Virus record (IMG/VR): IMGVR_UViG_3300036766_002086
Coordinates: 1-20,142 of that record
Origin: a virus
Length of the DNA stretch: 20,142 nucleotides
Reading direction: 5' to 3' (one strand)
Shown here: positions 1,915-18,162 of the stretch, one piece after another
Layout: each line of letters begins with the position of its first letter
How positions within the stretch are numbered: the stretch's first letter is position 1
Notes under the pieces: generated by a model
The model's input: the letters and a program-made list of their open reading frames with translations, nothing else
Told to the model about the DNA's origin: nothing
The model's database searches: none
Program-made: the position numbers and the translations under genes

Positions 1915-2313
1915 TTATTTTGCCTTCGTTTTTTCCAGTTCTTTTTTTGCCTTCCAGATATCTTCGGCTTTAATTCCTATGTCTACCGATCCAGAATGCT
2001 CGACATTTTGCCTATCCCGCCACAGGTCCGGCCGGCGGTTCTTCAGCCAAAAGATGATCGCTGTCGTGTCGCCATTTTTCGCCTTTTCGTAAAGGCTCTT
2101 TGTTATCTGAAAATCAGCCTTGAGCTTTCCCCTTTTTAGGGACTGCAAAAACGCGGGATTCTTTTTCCAATAATTCAGGGTTCTGGGGCTTATCCCGAGG
2201 ATAACGGCGATCTCCTCATCGGTGAGCCCGAGGCTGGCGATGACTTCGACCTGCTCGAGGTTCACATCCTCGATCCTGACGGACCGCTTGAGCTTCATGA
2301 CCTTAACTTTCAT
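1915..2313 (-). CDS. terS: Terminase small subunit-like HTH protein
   Basis: This 132-aa protein lies directly upstream of TerL and is very probably the DNA-recognition subunit of the packaging terminase. Residues about 25-52 form a helix-turn-helix (LTDEEIAVILGISPRTLNYW), followed by a helical segment with ALKRGK- and IIFWLKNRRPDLW-like sequence typical of the small-terminase family that carries a resolvase-like HTH. The C-terminal end is a Lys/Glu-rich helix. The start overlaps the stop of the upstream methyltransferase gene by ATGA, which implies coupled translation. Function is inferred from HTH plus position. Confidence 0.8.
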   Translation of the reverse strand: MKVKVMKLKRSVRIEDVNLEQVEVIASLGLTDEEIAVILGISPRTLNYWKKNPAFLQSLKRGKLKADFQITKSLYEKAKNGDTTAIIFWLKNRRPDLWRDRQNVEHSGSVDIGIKAEDIWKAKKELEKTKAK

Positions 2314-3626
2314 CGCCTTATCTTCCTAATCTTTTCCTCGGGGATCCTCACATAGTCGGCGTAGCGTTTGATGATGACATCACAGTATTTGGGATCTATC
2401 TCCATCAGGAACGCGCGCCGGCCTGATTTTTCGGCGGCGATAAGAGTCGATCCCGATCCCCCAAACAAATCGAGGACGTTCTCTCCCTTTCTGGATGAAT
2501 ACTCGATCGCTCTCTCTGCGAGCTCCACAGGCTTCTCTGTCAAGTGAACCATGCAGGCAGGATTCACCTTTTTCACGGACCAGACGTCTGTGACATTATT
2601 TGGCCCGAAAAACTTATGGGCCGCTCCCTCCTTCCAGCCGTAAAAACACCACTCATGATTCCCGAGGAAGTCCTTGCGGGTGAGGAAAGGATGCTCTTTG
2701 ACCCAGATTATGGTTTGGCTGAAATACAGGCCGCTTTCCTTAAGCGCCGGTGGATAGTTCCCACAGTTCGCATATCCGCCCCAGATATAGAACGACCGTC
2801 CAGGCTCGAGGACCCTGGCGATATTCCCGAACCACATCCGGAGAAGCGCCTCAAATTCGCTGTCTGAGACATAGTCATTGACCAGAGGCCGGTCTTTCGC
2901 GCGCATTTTCACCTTGGGCTTCTTTTTTAGGCCATATCTGGCCGAGTCGAAAGCTTGATGATGCTTTAGGTTTCCCGCGGCTTTGGCCGCGAGGATGGCA
3001 TTTGAAGAGCGGGGTTCAACCTTCACATTGTACGGCGGGTCAGTGTTGACGAGGTGAATTCTGGCGCCGACGAGAAGTCGATCAACGTCCTTTTCTTTTT
3101 CGCTGTCTCCGCACATCAGTCTGTGGTTGCCAAGCTTGAATATCTCGCCGGGTTTGGTTATTGGCGGGGAATCATCGATCTCAGGGATGATGTTGGCTTT
3201 CTCATCAAAGTCCGGTCCAAAATCCTCTATGATGAATTTGAGGTTGACAGCCTTACCGATATCAACCTTGAAATCGTCAAGGTCGAGCTTCGCGAGGTGA
3301 GGGTAGACGAGCTCCGCGAGCGCCTGTTCTTCGTAATAGCCGGCGCGGTCGTTATCGGAGAGGGCATATTCAATTTTTTCGGCCTCGGACTTGGGCTTTA
3401 TGATGGAGATCTCGACTCCCCGGACTCCCAGTTCTTTTAAGGCCCGGATCCGCATATTCCCGCCCAGGGTGATATACTTCCCGTTTTCCTGGTAGCAGAT
3501 CAGGGGCTTATAAACACCGAGCTTTAGGATCTGCCGCTTGAGCCGCTCGAAGTCCTCTTGCTTGATTCCCCGAGGGTTCTTTTCCCAGGGCTCCACTTTC
3601 TCGATCGGGACTTTCCGGATCTCCAT
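2310..3626 (-). CDS. ParB-like domain fused to beta-class DNA N4/N6 methyltransferase
   Basis: The 438-aa protein has an N-terminal ParB/sulfiredoxin-like domain (about residues 1-90, with GGNMRIRAL near 55-63) and a C-terminal amino-methyltransferase domain. The catalytic DPPY is at 196-199 and the AdoMet-binding DLFGGSGST at 386-394. The order DPPY before FGGSG is that of beta-class enzymes that methylate N6 of adenine or N4 of cytosine. I chose the ATG at 3626 over an in-frame GTG at 3629 because it forms a TGATG overlap with the upstream stop. Such fusions often sit beside phage terminase genes. The likely role is modification of phage DNA against host restriction, possibly linked to packaging. 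The target sequence cannot be read from the protein. Confidence 0.93.
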   Translation of the reverse strand: MEIRKVPIEKVEPWEKNPRGIKQEDFERLKRQILKLGVYKPLICYQENGKYITLGGNMRIRALKELGVRGVEISIIKPKSEAEKIEYALSDNDRAGYYEEQALAELVYPHLAKLDLDDFKVDIGKAVNLKFIIEDFGPDFDEKANIIPEIDDSPPITKPGEIFKLGNHRLMCGDSEKEKDVDRLLVGARIHLVNTDPPYNVKVEPRSSNAILAAKAAGNLKHHQAFDSARYGLKKKPKVKMRAKDRPLVNDYVSDSEFEALLRMWFGNIARVLEPGRSFYIWGGYANCGNYPPALKESGLYFSQTIIWVKEHPFLTRKDFLGNHEWCFYGWKEGAAHKFFGPNNVTDVWSVKKVNPACMVHLTEKPVELAERAIEYSSRKGENVLDLFGGSGSTLIAAEKSGRRAFLMEIDPKYCDVIIKRYADYVRIPEEKIRKIRR

Positions 3627-3883
3627 CACTTCACCACCGCTCCCTTAATTTCCTTGATGTCTTCTTTTATTTCTTTGATGTCTTGCTCAAACCTGATTTG
3701 TCTTGTCTCGAGGATCGCTATTTTCTCTCCCCGTTGCTGGCATATCTTTGCCGAGCCGGGCTTAGACCCATTATTCTCTGCATTTCTTTTCGCCTCATTT
3801 TTCCCTTTCAGGATCATCAGCCATGTCGCCATGTTTGAAACGGCCGCCATTCCCACCGCTGCCCAGGTGACCGGTTCCGTCAT
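3626..3883 (-). CDS. Small membrane protein with C-terminal coiled coil (lysis region)
   Basis: This 85-aa protein has one hydrophobic segment (about residues 7-25, WAAVGMAAVSNMATWLMIL), a basic stretch, and a C-terminal heptad-like helix (IRFEQDIKEIKEDIKEIKG). I chose the ATG at 3883, one base after the upstream stop, because AAAGGGG lies at ribosome-binding distance; an in-frame start at 3913 would overlap the upstream gene. The location between the endolysin and terminase genes suggests a lysis accessory role such as holin, antiholin or inner-membrane spanin. No family is recognised and the role is inference from position and topology. Confidence 0.7.
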   Translation of the reverse strand: MTEPVTWAAVGMAAVSNMATWLMILKGKNEAKRNAENNGSKPGSAKICQQRGEKIAILETRQIRFEQDIKEIKEDIKEIKGAVVK

Positions 3884-6780: not shown

Positions 6781-7088
6781 TTCAGCTCCCCCTGGGTAAT
6801 TCTCGAATCTTCAAATAAGGGATTCGTTCTCCGCGTTCGCCGAAAAGGGAGATCAAGCCGATTGTGGCAGCGCTGACAAAGCGCGATTAGGTTTATCCGC
6901 CTGTTATCTGTGGGATCCCCATTGATGTGATGGACGGTGATGACAACTTCTGAGCCCGTGACCGGATGAGAAGAACCGTTTGCCGCCCTGCACAGCTCGC
7001 ACTTCCAGCCGGCGCGCTCCCGGATGAGCAGCGAGATCCGGTCCCAATTGGGCGGATAGAGCGCCTTCCTTTCCGGCTTGATTGGCAT
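6777..7088 (-). CDS. Small HNH endonuclease
   Basis: The 103-aa protein is a compact HNH nuclease. A CxxC pair (Cys30, Cys33) and a CxxCH pair (Cys71, Cys74) form the structural zinc site, and VHHING (52-57, catalytic His53/His54) and Asn66 form the beta-beta-alpha-metal core. I chose the ATG at 7088 because it makes a TGATG overlap with the upstream gene; an in-frame start at 7127 would overlap far into it. HNH proteins near phage terminases can assist packaging, but this one lies far from TerL, so a homing or replication-associated nuclease is equally plausible. Confidence 0.85.
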   Translation of the reverse strand: MPIKPERKALYPPNWDRISLLIRERAGWKCELCRAANGSSHPVTGSEVVITVHHINGDPTDNRRINLIALCQRCHNRLDLPFRRTRRTNPLFEDSRITQGELK

Positions 7089-7645
7089 CAAAATATCTCC
7101 AACTGTCTTTGTTCCGATTTTGCGCACTTACGGTTTTGGGCATGGTATTTCATATGCGCAGAGTGCGATCGAAATATTTTCAGATTCTCAGGCCGATTGT
7201 CTTTTGGATCGCCATTTTCATGGTGGACCACTTCTTCCGGTATGAGTTTTCTTCCAAGTATCTTTTCTGCAATAAGGCGATGCTTTAAAATATATTTTTG
7301 GTGTCTTTTCCCAGTATAGATATAGCCTCTTTGATGCTTCCATTCTCCGCCTTTCCACCTATAGTGATTTGGACCTGATAATTTTTCCCTTACTTGATTT
7401 TTCCATTCTTCGGTTTTGGGTTTGCCATACTGAGGATTTCGCCACGGCTCTTTTTTATAAAGCAAGCGGAACGCATCGCTCCTTGTCCTTAATGGAATCC
7501 CAAGTCGATGAAGCCATGTATAAATTAATCGATGACGCCTGCCTAAAATCTTTGCGATTTCTGTTCCGCTGATACCGCGTTTTAAGTATTGTTCTTCAAA
7601 CCAATCGCGATGATTCTTGGCTTCTTCAAAATTTTTTATCTTCAT
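7088..7645 (-). CDS. HTH-HNH endonuclease (homing-type)
   Basis: The 185-aa protein has an N-terminal helix-turn-helix (about residues 25-52, ISGTEIAKILGRRHRLIYTW) and a C-terminal HNH_3-type nuclease with WKGG (97-100), KHRLIAEKILGRKL (121-134), VVHHENGDPKDNRPENL (139-155) and catalytic His141/His142. This arrangement is typical of free-standing phage homing endonucleases, which cut cognate DNA and spread by repair copying. The gene is more AT-rich than its neighbours, yet it is joined to them by short overlaps. A second gene of the same kind lies at 15226-15819. Confidence 0.88.
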   Translation of the reverse strand: MKIKNFEEAKNHRDWFEEQYLKRGISGTEIAKILGRRHRLIYTWLHRLGIPLRTRSDAFRLLYKKEPWRNPQYGKPKTEEWKNQVREKLSGPNHYRWKGGEWKHQRGYIYTGKRHQKYILKHRLIAEKILGRKLIPEEVVHHENGDPKDNRPENLKIFRSHSAHMKYHAQNRKCAKSEQRQLEIF

Positions 7646-8192: not shown

Positions 8193-9296
8193 TCAGTCTC
8201 CCTCCTCTCTCGGCTCGATTTGCTCTATCATCGCTATTATTCTCATTATTTCGTATGCGACTTGGGGGACAATGGCGTTGCCGAGTGCTTTAAGTCTGTC
8301 CACCCGATGGGAAACCCCATCATCCACTCGACAAAGGCGGGTTGCAACTTCAGGCCAGTTTTCTTGCCAATCCTTCGTCCCAATAAAGCATTGTCTGGCA
8401 CATTTTCGAGATTGCCGGTATCCTTGAAATCTCTTTTGATCGGCGTCGGAAGCATCGCTATCTGTTTGCCCAATCTCGGATATCTTTTCCCGCTTGAAAT
8501 TTGATACCCCTCTTGATTTTTCGCCTCTGGTGTCATTAGCATCGTAATTTTTCGACTTAATGCCATACCGTTGTCCTTGCTGTGATATTGATTCTTTTCG
8601 TTCGCCAGACAGGTGGACAATAATCCAGACCCTGTCCCTGCGGTGCGGGGCATTGACGGCGCAAGCTGGAATAATAATCGGCCAGACTTTGTAACTCTTG
8701 CTTTCCATCTGTGATAGCAAGTTCTCGAATACCACACCTTGCTCAAGACTAAGGATTCCAGGAGGATTTTCAAAGATTGCCCAGGTTGGCTTGACTTCGG
8801 CCAAGACTCTAATAGCTTCTGGCCAGAGCCAACGGTCATCTCTCGTTCCTTTTCGCTTCCCGGCGACCGATGCTGGTTGGCAAGGAACTCCTCCGGTAAG
8901 CAAAGTTGTGCCCCAGAAACGGGAACCGTCAAAATCTCGGATATCGGGGATGAGAGGGATTCGATTCGGTAAGCCAAATTTGGAGTGAAGTCCGCTCGAC
9001 TTTGTGGGCTTTGCTTCTCTGCCCTCGGTGTTGGCAATAGCCCCAAAACCCGAATCTTTCTGGAAAGAGTCATCTGTGCCTCGCCCTCGTTTGCCCTGAC
9101 AACCGTTTTCCAATTGCTCCTCTCGTAACCGTCTTGTGTTCTTGGGGTTGGTAATAATTCTTGCCCCGAACCTCGCCTTGAGAATTTCTTGGCAGAACTC
9201 ATCTATCTCGCAAAATACTACCGTCTCAAATCCCGCCCATTCTGCGGCCAAGGCGAAACCGCCGATGCCAGAGAATAAATCGACATGAGTTAACAC
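8193..9296 (-). CDS. DNA (cytosine-5-)-methyltransferase
   Basis: The 367-aa protein is a C5 cytosine methyltransferase. Motif I is VDLFSGIGGF (5-14), the catalytic Cys139 lies in motif IV GGVPCQPAS (135-143), motif VI is FENPPGILS (175-183), motif VIII is HRRDRVW (218-224) and motif X is LGNAIVPQVA (338-347). Motif VI has ENP in place of the usual ENV. Segments at about 51-118 and 227-318 are low-conservation linkers with repeated Asp/Asn/Thr-rich elements (IANTEGREA, DANDTRGEK, DASDADQKR). The start is a GTG overlapping the upstream TAG stop. No partner restriction enzyme lies beside it, so protection of phage DNA is likelier than a restriction-modification pair. A second long ORF is embedded in another frame. 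Confidence 0.95.
   Translation of the reverse strand: MLTHVDLFSGIGGFALAAEWAGFETVVFCEIDEFCQEILKARFGARIITNPKNTRRLREEQLENGCQGKRGRGTDDSFQKDSGFGAIANTEGREAKPTKSSGLHSKFGLPNRIPLIPDIRDFDGSRFWGTTLLTGGVPCQPASVAGKRKGTRDDRWLWPEAIRVLAEVKPTWAIFENPPGILSLEQGVVFENLLSQMESKSYKVWPIIIPACAVNAPHRRDRVWIIVHLSGERKESISQQGQRYGIKSKNYDANDTRGEKSRGVSNFKREKISEIGQTDSDASDADQKRFQGYRQSRKCARQCFIGTKDWQENWPEVATRLCRVDDGVSHRVDRLKALGNAIVPQVAYEIMRIIAMIEQIEPREEGD
8246..9202 (-). CDS. Embedded alternate-frame ORF with LPTP repeats (318 aa)
   Basis: A 318-codon ORF lies wholly inside the cytosine methyltransferase gene on the same strand, in the +1 frame. It starts at ATG 9202, right after in-frame stops. The translation is protein-like: five repeats begin LPTP or a variant (17-20, 56-59, LSTC 195-198, LMTP 222-225, 251-254) and most end in a basic-hydrophobic stretch such as LSRKIRVL, LAYRI, LSRKITM, LGKQIAM or LGRRI. 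The C-terminus has VEWMMGFPIGWTDL (291-304). I recall database proteins with LPTP repeats and a VEWLMGFP-type end, often labelled as methylases or hypothetical. In the main frame the last element reads as VSHRVDRLK before motif X. The start has only a weak Shine-Dalgarno, so expression is unproven. Confidence 0.4.
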   Translation of the reverse strand: MSSAKKFSRRGSGQELLPTPRTQDGYERSNWKTVVRANEGEAQMTLSRKIRVLGLLPTPRAEKQSPQSRADFTPNLAYRIESLSSPISEILTVPVSGAQLCLPEEFLANQHRSPGSEKEREMTVGSGQKLLESWPKSSQPGQSLKILLESLVLSKVWYSRTCYHRWKARVTKSGRLLFQLAPSMPRTAGTGSGLLSTCLANEKNQYHSKDNGMALSRKITMLMTPEAKNQEGYQISSGKRYPRLGKQIAMLPTPIKRDFKDTGNLENVPDNALLGRRIGKKTGLKLQPAFVEWMMGFPIGWTDLKHSATPLSPKSHTK

Positions 9297-11034: not shown

Positions 11035-11220
11035 TCAAACCCTTTTGTCTGGTCCGCCTTTTTTCTCTGAGATGGCCTCTATCGTTTTGAGCGCAGCGTC
11101 ATCGAAAAGGAGCTCTGACTTGCATTGAACACAGACCCGGAATCTGCCGATAATCGCCCAGGGCGTGACATCGAGACATTTCATGCAGTAATGGTATTCG
11201 CACTCTCTTGTATCGCTCAT
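11035..11220 (-). CDS. Small zinc-ribbon protein
   Basis: The 61-aa protein carries two CxxC pairs (CMKC near residues 12-15 and CVQC near 30-33) plus an extra Cys-His pair near the N-terminus (CEYHYC), typical of a zinc ribbon. The C-terminal part is helical and charged. Its start overlaps the upstream coiled-coil gene (ATGA). It is probably a nucleic-acid or protein-binding accessory of the recombination/replication block; role unknown. Confidence 0.7.
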   Translation of the reverse strand: MSDTRECEYHYCMKCLDVTPWAIIGRFRVCVQCKSELLFDDAALKTIEAISEKKGGPDKRV

Positions 11221-11933
11221 GATGGCCTCGCTTGCTCGTTTCTCGTTCCGATTCTCTGCATGATCGGCCGGTTGAAAACCCGGATCCCGGGGATGTTCGT
11301 TTTGTCTTTCATGGCTTTGACGATTTTGCGGATTTTGACTTCATCCGGAATCAGGTATTCCCTGGGAATCGCAGCCTCATCCACGATCTCAAAATCCCAG
11401 TTCTCGCGCATAGCCAAGCCTTTAGTTTTGGGAGCCTCCGGAACAATAGACGCCGGGGCGATCTTCTTTTCCTCATCGGCCGCTTGGGCAAGGATCCTGT
11501 CGGCCTCAGCCTGGGCTGCCTGACAGGCGGCCTCGTCTTTTTCAGCCTTAGCTCGATTCTCGGCTTCCATAGCTTTGCGAAGGGCCTCTTCCTCGAGCCG
11601 TTTCTTTTCTTGCTCAACTCGGATCCTCTCGAGCTCGGCTTCCCTGCGCTTCCTTTCCTGTTCGGCCTTGTAGGAAGCGATAGACCGGCTCAGCGCGTCA
11701 ATCACGGGCTTGAGCTTCCAGAGCTCTTGGTTTTCAGTATTGCAAATCTCCTTCCATGTGGCGTGAGCCTTGGCTTTGAGCGGAGCGAAGAAATCCTTGA
11801 TTTTCGTTTCCAGCTCTTTCGCAGCCAGGAGAAGCTCGCTCGCCTTGGCAAGACTTCCTTGATCGATTGCTCTGTAAGCTCCGGCAATGCCAACAAAATT
11901 ATTTACCTGTCTTTCAAGTTCAGTTGTTTCCAT
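11217..11933 (-). CDS. Recombination-module coiled-coil protein
   Basis: The 238-aa protein has a helical N-terminal region, a long Glu/Lys/Arg/Ala coiled coil (about residues 85-158) and a conserved-looking C-terminal domain with MRENWDFEIVDEAAIPREYL and an IPDEVKIRKIVKAMKDKTNI segment ending in IPGIRVFNRP. I recall this C-terminal pattern from phage proteins encoded beside RecT- or exonuclease-type genes, whose molecular role is not established. It follows the exonuclease gene by 2 bases, so the two are co-expressed. Confidence 0.75.
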   Translation of the reverse strand: METTELERQVNNFVGIAGAYRAIDQGSLAKASELLLAAKELETKIKDFFAPLKAKAHATWKEICNTENQELWKLKPVIDALSRSIASYKAEQERKRREAELERIRVEQEKKRLEEEALRKAMEAENRAKAEKDEAACQAAQAEADRILAQAADEEKKIAPASIVPEAPKTKGLAMRENWDFEIVDEAAIPREYLIPDEVKIRKIVKAMKDKTNIPGIRVFNRPIMQRIGTRNEQARPS

Positions 11934-11935
11934 GT

Positions 11936-12994
11936 TTAGATCCTTTCAATCTTCGTGATGATGATCTCTCTCGCCTCGGCGTAGGGCGCCTTCACTTCAT
12001 CCGGCATGTTGTAGAACTTTCGGTTTTGTATTTCGGTAGTGATGGCGATGTCGTTTACGATGGCGTTCTTCCCGTGATAACGGCCTGGTTTGTCTTTCGT
12101 TCCAACGAGCTTCTTGTGGAGGTCATCAAACTTCTCTTTTGCTTCCTTGAGCTCGAGATAGAACTCAAGAAGAGGTACATCGCCCTGAGAGATCTCCTCC
12201 ATTTCCGTGGCCTTGAGCGGCTGGCAGAGATGATTAAAATCGCAAAGATTACAAATCTGTGCCTCATAGGGGATAGGCTCAGGATAAGTGCCGGCCTCCA
12301 CGTGGCGGTTCACGTCTTCGATCTTGCGGAAGTCGGCATCTAAGCGGTCATAGTCAAGGAGCATGGGAAGGATCCTCGGCCGCTTCCCGAATGTCTTCAG
12401 GATGAAAAAGCCGAAGGGACTGTCGGAGGCGTAGAGATAGGCGTTCAGCTGGCTCGGATAGCCGCGGATCCACCAGGCGCGGTGACGCTTGATATCTTCT
12501 ATTGACTTTGTGCTTTCCCAGTAATTCGGATTTACTGTTTTGATCTCACACGGAACAGAGACCACGTTGGGGACACCTTGGATTTCGCGGTTCAGCGGGA
12601 GAAGCCCGTCAACCTTGCCTTTGATCTTGAGATCCGGGATCGTAAATGTCCTCTGCGATTCATTAAGCTGGAATCCGATATCTCCGAGGTCTTTCTTGAG
12701 CTGCCATTCGGCCCGGCTTCCTTCCTCAACCCTGTATTCGCCATCGATATCCATGAGCTGCCGCTCTCTCCAGTCAAGCCGGGCATGGACCAGGAATTTC
12801 TTGCAGGGATGACCAAATTCGGATGCCCAGTTCCATTCTGAATGATCCCAGGGCTCTCTTTTCCCCTGGCGCATGGCGTCCAACCGCTGGCCGATCTCCG
12901 CGGCGATCTCCTCAACCTGAGCTAAAATGAGATCACCATTCGCCGGGCTTCGAGAAATGACTTCTTCACGGGTGACAATATGATTTCCCATCAT
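11936..12994 (-). CDS. PD-(D/E)XK exonuclease with Cas4/AddB-like Fe-S cysteines
   Basis: The 352-aa protein is a RecB-like PD-(D/E)XK nuclease. The catalytic core has GKVDG (126-130, Asp129), the CEIK motif (149-152, Glu150 and Lys152) and YPSQLNAYLY (179-188, Gln182), the QxxxY motif of this superfamily. One upstream cysteine (Cys64, in HPCKK) and three downstream (Cys248, Cys251, Cys257, in ICNLCDFNHLC) match the 1+3 pattern that holds a 4Fe-4S cluster in Cas4 and AddB. In phages such enzymes resect double-strand ends to feed an annealing protein. The start overlaps the upstream 334-aa gene (ATGA), its likely partner. Confidence 0.88.
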   Translation of the reverse strand: MMGNHIVTREEVISRSPANGDLILAQVEEIAAEIGQRLDAMRQGKREPWDHSEWNWASEFGHPCKKFLVHARLDWRERQLMDIDGEYRVEEGSRAEWQLKKDLGDIGFQLNESQRTFTIPDLKIKGKVDGLLPLNREIQGVPNVVSVPCEIKTVNPNYWESTKSIEDIKRHRAWWIRGYPSQLNAYLYASDSPFGFFILKTFGKRPRILPMLLDYDRLDADFRKIEDVNRHVEAGTYPEPIPYEAQICNLCDFNHLCQPLKATEMEEISQGDVPLLEFYLELKEAKEKFDDLHKKLVGTKDKPGRYHGKNAIVNDIAITTEIQNRKFYNMPDEVKAPYAEAREIIITKIERI

Positions 12995-14775: not shown

Positions 14776-15233
14776 CACAAAGCCTCTTTCCGTATCTTCT
14801 CTTTCAATTCCCCGGCTTTCTCCTGCAGCCGGGTCAGAAGCCTATGAATTTGCCTGCATTCATTTTTTGTGATCTGGCCATCATCGTAGGCCTGTTCTAT
14901 GGCTTCGAGAGTTTTTCCATTCAAGATGGAAAGGTCGATCTCATTCTGTTTTCTTTCGCTGGGAGATAGCTCTCCCTTTGGGGCCGGAACCGCAAGATAG
15001 CCAATTGGCTCGCAGAAGAAGTCCAAATACTCAATGTCCTTCGTGGCCTGGATAAGGTCGATGATTCTATCCGGAGGGATAATATTCTCTCCGCGGATAT
15101 ATCGATAAAGGGTGTCTGTGGCGATCCGCATTTCCTTGGCCACAAAATCAACTCTGTATTTCTTCTTGATAATAAAATTCACGTATAAAAGTGCGCTGAA
15201 CCCTGAGATCTGCGTACCGTTGATATTATTCAT
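14775..15233 (-). CDS. CII-like phage regulatory protein
   Basis: The 152-aa protein resembles the phage CII/CP76 regulator family. An N-terminal HTH-like region (DFVAKEMRIATDTLYRYIRG, about 29-48) is followed by IIPPDRIIDLIQATKDIEYL and FCEPIGYLAVPAP, a pattern seen in that family. The C-terminal half is helical (KTLEAIEQAYDDGQITKNEC), probably for oligomerisation. CII-type proteins help choose lysogeny by activating repressor or integrase transcription. Its place early in the leftward operon fits. Its start lies 8 bases within the end of the HNH gene. Confidence 0.75.
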   Translation of the reverse strand: MNNINGTQISGFSALLYVNFIIKKKYRVDFVAKEMRIATDTLYRYIRGENIIPPDRIIDLIQATKDIEYLDFFCEPIGYLAVPAPKGELSPSERKQNEIDLSILNGKTLEAIEQAYDDGQITKNECRQIHRLLTRLQEKAGELKEKIRKEAL

Positions 15234-15819
15234 TCCCGTCCGCCTTCATTCTTTCTATTCTTCTGTGTAGCCATGCGTGGAACGACCTGGTGCATATGAG
15301 AAGGTTCGAATGGCGATTGTCTGACCTATTACCATTTATGTGGTGGACGACCTCATCTTTTTTCATGGGTCGCCTTAGAATCGCCTCGGCAATTATTCTG
15401 TGCTCGGCGCGATATTGCGTGGTCCCATTCATGCAGTTCTGATATTGCAGAGAATAGCCGTGAGCCTTGGGAGTTCCCCCCTTCCAGCCAACGGCCTGGC
15501 TGGCCGTTTTGCCGTATTGAGGATGGCGTTCGCCGTGCATCCGCTGAGATATGACTTGCCGCCATTTTTCCGATTGACGTTTTCCCTTCATTGGGCTAAT
15601 GCGGCCTTTAAAGAGACGGCTTAAGTATTCCTTTTTCGACTGAGGCCAGGTTCGGCCTTGTTGATAAAAGCCGGGACTCCTTATTTCAATGCCGAATTTC
15701 CTAAGATGATCATAGATTGGATGATTAGATACTCCGCATATTTTGGCGATAGAAAGCGCCGATAATTTTTCTTCGATATATTTTTTATAGAGCCAAGCTC
15801 GATCTTGATATTGTTTCAT
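15226..15819 (-). CDS. HTH-NUMOD-HNH homing-type endonuclease
   Basis: The 197-aa protein has an N-terminal HTH (about 20-43, SALSIAKICGVSNHPIYDHL), a NUMOD3-like basic stretch (ISPMKGKRQSEKWRQVISQR, about 74-93), WKGG (112-115) and an HNH nuclease core with EHRIIAEAIL (139-148) and EVVHHINGNRSDNRHSNL (156-173, His159/His160). It shares architecture with the gene at 7088-7645 but is clearly diverged. It interrupts the early regulatory operon between the excisionase region and the CII-like gene. Its ribosome-binding site is weak, a trait of mobile homing genes. Confidence 0.88.
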   Translation of the reverse strand: MKQYQDRAWLYKKYIEEKLSALSIAKICGVSNHPIYDHLRKFGIEIRSPGFYQQGRTWPQSKKEYLSRLFKGRISPMKGKRQSEKWRQVISQRMHGERHPQYGKTASQAVGWKGGTPKAHGYSLQYQNCMNGTTQYRAEHRIIAEAILRRPMKKDEVVHHINGNRSDNRHSNLLICTRSFHAWLHRRIERMKADGNE

Positions 15820-16547: not shown

Positions 16548-17339
16548 ATGATTTTGAATTCTATGGGCGATCCAAAAACCCTTTCTGATTTTTTAATAGA
16601 AAAAACTAAAAATCAAACACTTGCCAGCATTGCTAAAGCAATTGGTTATTCTGATAGTTTTTTAAGCAAATTACGTGCAGGACATTATGAATCAGCAGGG
16701 ATCAATGTTGCTATTGACCTTTCTCTTTATTTCCATGAACCTCTTGAAAAGATACTTGCCCTTATTGGAAAAGAAAAATATTATGAAAAGTTAAAGCGCA
16801 ATCTTGCCAGGGAATTTCAAAAAGAACCTCATCTCACTTTTAACTCTCCTGAGGGCGATTATGAGGGAATAAAACTCTTCCCAGATCCCATCAGCCTAGG
16901 CCCGGGCTACGAGCTCAGCGAGATGGTCCCTGAGGACTATGCCCCCCTCCTAAAGTCCATGCTACCAAAGGGCTGGAAAAGCGACAAGGATCGGATCGTG
17001 GCTTTCAGGACAAAAGGCATCAGCATGAAGCCGACCATCAACGACGGATCTATTGTCTGGATCGACCGGATGGACGTTGTCCCGAAGATAGGGGAGGTCT
17101 ATGCTTTCCTGCTAAAAGATTTTGGGAATATTGTGACCATCAAACGATTGATCAAAATAGACCGGCATTTTATGATAATCGATGGAGACAATAGCAATGC
17201 GGAAGATAGGAAAGCAGAAGATTTAAAAGATTTTCCGATGGTGCTCAATCTGAAGGAATACGAGCATGACGGCGTTTCTCCGGTCAGGGGAAGGGTGATC
17301 TGGGTATTGAATCGGTTGATTGAGAAACCGAAGAAATAA
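16548..17339 (+). CDS. S24/LexA-type phage repressor
   Basis: The 263-aa protein is the probable lysogeny repressor. The N-terminal HTH (about 24-47, TLASIAKAIGYSDSFLSKLR) binds DNA; the C-terminal part is a signal-peptidase-like S24 domain with Ser159 in GISMKPT and Lys199 in VTIKRL as the catalytic dyad for self-cleavage on SOS induction. No clear Ala-Gly or Cys-Gly cleavage site is seen between the domains. ATG 16548 has AGGA upstream at long spacing; ATG 16563 is an alternative, and an upstream TTG at 16494 falls in the operator repeats and is rejected. Base composition shifts near 16870 (about residue 108) from AT-rich to GC-richer, suggesting a domain swap. Confidence 0.88.
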   Translation: MILNSMGDPKTLSDFLIEKTKNQTLASIAKAIGYSDSFLSKLRAGHYESAGINVAIDLSLYFHEPLEKILALIGKEKYYEKLKRNLAREFQKEPHLTFNSPEGDYEGIKLFPDPISLGPGYELSEMVPEDYAPLLKSMLPKGWKSDKDRIVAFRTKGISMKPTINDGSIVWIDRMDVVPKIGEVYAFLLKDFGNIVTIKRLIKIDRHFMIIDGDNSNAEDRKAEDLKDFPMVLNLKEYEHDGVSPVRGRVIWVLNRLIEKPKK

Positions 17340-17355
17340 ACTCAAGGGAGAAACT

Positions 17356-18162
17356 ATGGAAAAAGAATTAAAAAAACAATTAAAACTATTTGCTCCTATT
17401 TTCAAGGATGCTCAGGATCAGGGAAAGAGAGAAGCAGATGTCGTAATGTATGTAGTGCAATTCTTTAAAGATGCCTTGGGATATGACATATTTACTGAAA
17501 TCAGCAAGGAATTCCAGATAAAAGAAAAATATTGCGATATCGCCATTAAACTCCAAGGACAAGTAGAAATGTTAATAGAAGTAAAACAGGCCGGCCTTAG
17601 ATTATCTGATAGGCATATTGAACAAGCTGAAAGCTATGCCATGAAGAGCGGCACTAAGTGGGTTCTCTTAACAAACGGTACAGAATGGAAATTATTCCAT
17701 ATAAGCTTCAGCGAAACCGAGGGCATCGAGCGAGCCGTGGTATTTAAAATAGATTTATTGAAAGACCTTGAGGAGCGGCCTGACGAAGTTTTCGAGAAAT
17801 TTGGACTTCTACAAAAACGAAATTATCTAAAAGGCGCTCTCGACAAATATTGGACTAAGAAAACGATGCTCGAACCGGGAGCTCTTGCCCAGGCCCTATT
17901 TAGCCAGATGGTTCTTAAGGCCTTAAACCGCGAAATCAACCGGGGGGCCGAAGCTAAGGTAAGCTTCGATGATATTGTCAAAGCGCTAAAGAATCTTCTG
18001 GATAAGGAAATACTGGCTGATCTTGCAGATATTAAGATCGGCAAAAAGCGACGGGCAAAGCGCCAATCAATAAAGAAGACTGAGGTAGAAGAATTGAAAC
18101 CTCAAGAGATTCAGGCCGTTGAAAACAAAGAAAAAATAGAAGAAAAAGAAGAAATAAAATAG
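17356..18162 (+). CDS. Solo HsdR N-terminal-like PD-(D/E)XK nuclease-domain protein
   Basis: The 268-aa protein matches the N-terminal nuclease domain of type I restriction subunit R. Key elements are KEFQIKEKYCDIAI (51-64, Asp61), MLIEVKQAG (72-80, Glu75 and Lys77), HIEQAESYA (87-95, QxxxY) and WVLLTNGTEWKLFHI (102-116). No helicase domain follows; the C-terminal half is helical and ends in a Lys/Glu-rich tail. ATG 17356 is chosen because AAGGGAGAAACT precedes it. It sits directly after the repressor, co-oriented, in the lysogenic cargo position. It may act in superinfection defence, or only bind DNA or nucleotides; stand-alone members are common and poorly understood. Confidence 0.75.
   Translation: MEKELKKQLKLFAPIFKDAQDQGKREADVVMYVVQFFKDALGYDIFTEISKEFQIKEKYCDIAIKLQGQVEMLIEVKQAGLRLSDRHIEQAESYAMKSGTKWVLLTNGTEWKLFHISFSETEGIERAVVFKIDLLKDLEERPDEVFEKFGLLQKRNYLKGALDKYWTKKTMLEPGALAQALFSQMVLKALNREINRGAEAKVSFDDIVKALKNLLDKEILADLADIKIGKKRRAKRQSIKKTEVEELKPQEIQAVENKEKIEEKEEIK

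Follow-up and report, generated by a model that had tools for sequence, protein, structure and literature searches.

A phage C5-cytosine methyltransferase gene with a second frame under selection that probably encodes a partner subunit

A methyltransferase locus probably read in two frames

The window examined here, a viral contig of 20,142 bases, carries a C5-cytosine DNA methyltransferase gene in which a second open reading frame of 318 codons is nested. The two overlapping frames are both under selection, and we consider it highly probable that the locus codes for a two-polypeptide C5-cytosine DNA methyltransferase whose chains are translated separately from the same DNA and then assemble. 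The outer frame would supply the alpha chain, which comprises the AdoMet-binding and catalytic core (motifs I-VIII) together with motif X. The inner frame, which is read in +1 and would be translated on its own, would supply a beta chain in which LPTP units, a middle block and motif IX make up the small DNA-reading domain. The two chains would join to form one enzyme, and the LPTP units may set its target sequence.

To our knowledge, long same-strand overlaps of two conserved genes have rarely been documented in phages, and the overlap pattern described here is repeated across phages and across prokaryotic contigs from many phyla. Many genes that bear the label of a complete 'DNA cytosine methyltransferase' probably encode half an enzyme, and therefore cloning of alpha alone would be expected to fail. 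Likewise, many 'hypothetical protein' or duplicate methylase calls probably represent the other half. These loci also offer a system for studying overprinting, given that one domain occurs free, fused and nested.

Layout of the outer and inner genes

All parts of the two frames lie on the minus strand. Other genes of the window encode a phage integrase, an S24-type repressor and HNH proteins. The outer gene (alpha, P0001; 367 codons, 8193..9296) matches the Pfam family DNA_methylase (PF00145, E=3e-40) as well as M.HhaI, with the latter match covering motifs I and IV-VIII. Alpha has motifs I-VIII and X, including those by which C5-methyltransferases are recognised. The AdoMet-binding motif I (DLFSGIGGF, 9255..9281) is located outside the inner ORF. 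Motif IV (GGVPCQPAS, 8868..8894), with the catalytic cysteine in its PCQ sequence, and motif VIII (APHRRDRVWII, 8619..8651) were placed by the alignment with M.HhaI, and motif VI is of the ENV/ENP type (ENPPG, 8757..8771). Motif X (RLKALGNAIVPQVAYEI, 8247..8297) conforms to the GNxV pattern and was located by its BLASTP match with that of a monomeric relative (P0004). No motif IX-like segment was seen in alpha, and the DNA for motif IX reads in the +1 frame.

On re-reading of the sequence, the inner ORF (beta, P0002) proved to be as given in the initial annotation, with 318 codons on the minus strand at 8246..9202, in the +1 frame relative to the methyltransferase, and a C-terminus of VEWMMGFPIGWTDL. 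The five LPTP-type units that had been described are present as well, and a conserved middle block separates the first two from the last three. The N-site units 1 and 2 occupy 9041..9157 and 8957..9040, respectively. The middle block (8624..8947), which has two predicted strands and ends in CYHRWKARVTKSGRLLFQLAPSMPRT, overlaps alpha motifs IV-VIII. It is followed by the C-site units 3 (8540..8623, with a degenerate LLSTC), 4 (8456..8539, LMTP) and 5 (8357..8455), and then by the segment assigned as motif IX (GLKLQPAFVEWMMGFPIGWTDL, 8291..8356). The inner ORF faces motifs IV-X of the enzyme as well as the inter-motif linkers, a wider span than the linkers plus motifs VIII to X named in the initial description.

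Selection on the inner frame

Conserved enzyme motifs and codon bias might leave a +1 frame open as a by-product, with no second protein being made. Such an origin is made conceivable by the fact that the motifs involved are common to C5-methyltransferases and that GC-rich genes carry long shadow ORFs. We weighed the open frame against 5000 synonymous shuffles of the enzyme gene, in each of which the longest +1 open run was scored; this test is conservative because codon counts are kept. The longest runs in the shuffled genes averaged 100 codons, with a 99.9th percentile of 227 and a maximum of 288, and the 318 codons observed thus exceed every shuffle. Approximately 8.8 stops were expected from the shuffles in the span of the inner ORF and none was found. 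No same-strand shadow frame longer than 115 codons was present in the other genes tested within the window.

Viral homologues were gathered in two sets, one seeded by the inner protein and the other by the enzyme, and the enzyme-seeded set is the unbiased one. Among its 54 complete members, 296 stops were seen in the +1 frame versus 479 expected, and the longest +1 run averaged 244 codons versus 116 expected, with two thirds of the genes individually reaching P<0.01. The depletion occurs only in +1, given that the +2 frame of the same genes is normal (913 stops versus 906 expected). Several high-GC homologues are not significant when taken singly, as a by-product of composition would have it, but the effect persists at 40-50% GC, where +1 runs of 418 codons (L122, 45% GC) and 189 codons (L152, 40% GC) are found.

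Synonymous constraint was measured in 49 non-redundant enzyme-seeded homologues as the rate at which pairs with the same amino acid share a codon, expressed as the ratio of the observed rate to that expected from codon usage. This ratio is 1.05 over motifs I-III, and therefore synonymous sites are saturated there. It is 1.22-1.52 over motifs IV-VIII and 1.48 in the linker, is highest (2.31) opposite the beta motif IX (EWMMG), and declines to 1.14 over motif X and 0.99 beyond the inner ORF. The excess begins and ends together with the inner ORF. Opposite EWMMG, conservation of the beta frame (0.425) is greater than that of the alpha frame (0.379), against a shuffled null of 0.203. A pairwise test with close homologues overstates the constraint on beta because synonymous codons are shared by descent, and weight was placed on the distant sets. 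A structural DNA or RNA element alone would not keep one frame free of stops over 200-400 codons.

Excess synonymous constraint confined to the overlap, and an alternate frame that stays open across homologues, had been named in advance as the checks on dual coding, and both were observed. The shuffles and the normal +2 frame exclude the alternative that had been raised at the same time, namely that enzyme motifs and codon bias make the pattern. Restriction of the constraint to the overlap, the enrichment of ribosome-binding signals at nested ATGs, and the fact that other phage enzymes carry the same sequence in frame as their C-terminal half (the last two described below) also speak against it. 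On this evidence, we regard a locus with no second protein as extremely improbable.

Putative translation start of the inner frame

Shine-Dalgarno sequences of at least five bases at a proper distance were found for 21 of the 51 genes (41%) whose first nested ATG falls at enzyme codons 44-62, compared with 103 of 1269 control ATGs (8%; P=6e-10). The enzyme sequence around these nested ATGs is barely conserved, and therefore coding for the enzyme does not account for the signal. In the window, the putative beta start (9200..9202) is the sole ATG upstream of the first LPTP unit, and inspection for a Shine-Dalgarno sequence at this ATG (9202) revealed no clear site. This weakens the case for the window's own copy, but not for the family. 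We infer that both chains are probably made in the phage represented by the window.

An inner frame that is real could also be expressed without a start of its own, if programmed ribosomal frameshifting fused it to alpha. One-frame relatives do hold everything in one chain, and in two loci (L189 and L190) a frameshift near motif IV links motifs I-IV to the LPTP frame. However, internal ATGs with Shine-Dalgarno sequences occur at a consistent position, alpha retains both its own open frame and motif X, and a +1 shift into beta would cost the nested form its motif X. Given these observations, we judge frameshifting to be improbable and favour a beta chain that would be initiated separately.

Identity of the inner protein

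Searches with beta alone gave no match in Pfam, NCBIfam or PADLOC, and a PDB sequence search with the beta profile also gave none. The protein is matched by PHROG_1008 (E=3.1e-33, with its best-matching part at positions 36-285 of the 329-position profile), which also matches two one-frame enzymes, P0003 (5e-60) and P0004 (3e-49), over their C-terminal halves. A profile of 77 inner proteins aligns, over the part comprising the LPTP region and motif IX, with monomeric phage enzymes (hhalign probability 98.3, E=1.5e-14). One-frame enzymes with LPTP units and EWMMG between motifs VIII and X are found in actinophages, and include prophiFVLQ01-1 gp6, Gordonia phage Phinally gp5 and Propionibacterium phage PFR1 gp45. 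In Mycobacterium phage Kampy, the LPTP units, EWMMG and motif X reside in a second gene (gp77), which overlaps the end of gp78 (motifs I-VIII). These comparisons show that beta shares ancestry with the part of its one-piece relatives that lies between motifs VIII and X.

A joint profile built from monomers and from split and nested fragments aligns FVEWMMGfPegW with LHPRECARVMGYPDSY of M.HhaI. The same profile aligns the longer pattern LxPxFVEWMMGFPxGW with M.HhaI KLHPRECARVMGYPDSY, which is motif IX, followed by motif X, and it is through this alignment that motif IX of the window was assigned. Structure prediction for the monomer L176 gave a model (mean pLDDT 77.5, pTM 0.79) that aligns with the whole of M.HhaI (Z 25.5, 3.3 A over 261 residues). 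Confidence is good for the parts of the model with motifs IX and X, but low for residues 204-272, which make up most of the LPTP region. The location of motif IX in the inner frame is therefore well supported, whereas we infer from their position that the LPTP units serve target recognition. When modelled alone, beta gives a pLDDT of 58 and a pTM of 0.28 and its fold is unconfirmed, as would be the case for a chain that needs a partner or has flexible parts.

The LPTP units do not resemble recognition domains of the textbook type, which might suggest that the product of the inner ORF, although genuine, acts outside methylation, for instance in anti-restriction or regulation. We hold this to be very improbable, given that the homologous region sits between motifs VIII and X in monomers, that beta ends in the motif IX that is missing from alpha, and that beta without a methyltransferase frame was not found among the fetched loci. 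The inner ORF most likely encodes the beta subunit of a two-polypeptide methyltransferase and holds the enzyme's own variable region plus motif IX, an identity that the initial annotation did not give.

Comparison with known methyltransferases

In work attributed to Lee et al. in 1995, the beta subunit of M.EcoHK31I is reportedly encoded within alpha in another frame. The window likewise has an ORF inside alpha, in another frame and under selection. M.EcoHK31I (YGGCCR) has motifs I-VIII and X and a predicted recognition domain on its large subunit, and only motif IX on its small subunit (PMC3404938). The likeness to the window is one of motif division, with motifs I-VIII and X on alpha and motif IX on a second polypeptide. 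However, the predicted recognition domain of M.EcoHK31I is on alpha, whereas beta of the window carries the variable LPTP region and the equivalent alpha segment is barely conserved.

M.AquI is also formed by two chains, as proposed for the window, and these are split in the variable region with motifs IX and X on the small subunit, or beta (PMC3404938). Motif X of the window is in the alpha frame, unlike that of M.AquI, and the locus is therefore not of the M.AquI type. Tandem mycobacteriophage pairs such as Kampy gp78/gp77 are AquI-like. The actinophage monomers (for example, prophiFVLQ01-1 gp6 and Phinally gp5) possess the same LPTP units, an EWMMG motif IX, and motifs I-VIII and X, but in one frame and one chain.

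The same nesting is evident as a second CDS in GenBank 'internal gene' features of the Paenibacillus phages Rani (gp51) and Lily (gp63), and in ORF28 within ORF29 of Escherichia phage K1H. These internal genes are labelled DNA methyltransferase with their role unstated, and the Paenibacillus matches to beta of the window have only about 33-38% identity. PHROG_1008 is named just 'DNA methyltransferase', in a description without nesting or a motif IX role. Our search of the literature on overlapping or nested phage methyltransferases found nothing beyond papers on split enzymes. The nested form is a widespread, largely unrecognised variant of the known two-polypeptide kind, with M.EcoHK31I as the characterised precedent.

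Architectures and distribution

A pattern-based classifier was applied to the fetched viral and prokaryotic loci, with the nested class defined by an alpha frame open from motif IV through X and beta in +1. It assigned 186 loci to the nested form, approximately 20 to a split form with motif X on beta and 9 to the monomeric form, although these counts are rough and are not frequencies because loci were seed-sampled, duplicates are included and some forms escape the regular expressions. Among the fetched loci the nested form outnumbers the others, and monomeric, tandem-split and nested forms are found side by side. Nested loci also occur in bacterial contigs of many phyla, in which one peptide pattern, applied to 84,980 species, identified 262 relatives.

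The initial annotation had referred to similar sequences annotated as stand-alone proteins and suggested that dual coding may be widespread. Separate-gene labels and a wide spread were indeed found, but each annotated case that was examined sits within a methyltransferase locus or is joined to one. Sequences first taken for stand-alone LPTP tails also proved to be +1 readings of methyltransferase genes (L164), and, apart from the tandem alpha/beta splits, the search yielded no free-standing homologue in which the enzyme frame is closed.

The linker between motifs IX and X is shorter in the nested form than in monomers, and therefore a single deletion with a change of frame between these motifs could convert one form into the other. 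The conserved middle block opposite motifs V-VIII is present in split and nested forms and absent from the monomers read.

In L189 and L190 (about 1400-2170), the frameshift that fuses motifs I-IV to the LPTP frame lies in a G-rich stretch near motif IV and leaves alpha broken; mutation, sequencing error and a switch are all conceivable explanations. In Mycobacterium phage DosHalletts (L161, 1302-1983), only the inner protein is annotated (gp71, hypothetical) and the open outer methyltransferase was missed. In Mycobacterium phage GigiOuiOui (L168, 884-1968), methyltransferase similarity of gp65 ends after motif IV, as if frameshifted, and the beta frame (gp66, with motif X) remains open.

Variation and apparent movement of the LPTP units

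The number of LPTP units in beta ranges from none to six across homologues. Unit 2 of the window, located before motif IV, has 88% identity over 26 residues to a C-site unit (after motif VIII) of L007, and unit 4 has 64% identity over 22 residues to an N-site unit of L018. Such cross-site matches suggest that units relocate within beta between an insertion site before motif IV and another after motif VIII, with both frames kept open. We propose tentatively, and with more doubt than confidence, that phages possess a large class of methyltransferases, for the most part unannotated, in which the target-recognition subunit is concealed in the +1 frame, and that LPTP cassettes move between the two sites of this subunit in frame for both proteins, such that DNA specificity may be reshuffled through the exchange of dual-coding cassettes.

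Other features of the window

A second DNA methyltransferase, in which a ParB-N domain is fused to an N6/N4 methylase, is encoded at 2310-3629 (-). Two HNH_3 endonuclease genes are present at 7088-7645 (-) and 15226-15819 (-), one of them with a NUMOD3 motif, and these resemble homing-type nucleases. A short protein with a Type I restriction R-subunit N-terminal domain (HSDR_N_2) is encoded at 17320-18162 (+) and adjoins the repressor gene. Finally, the gene at 11217-11933 (-) has an antisense frame that is almost fully open (235 aa at 11232-11939, +), which is likely a composition effect.
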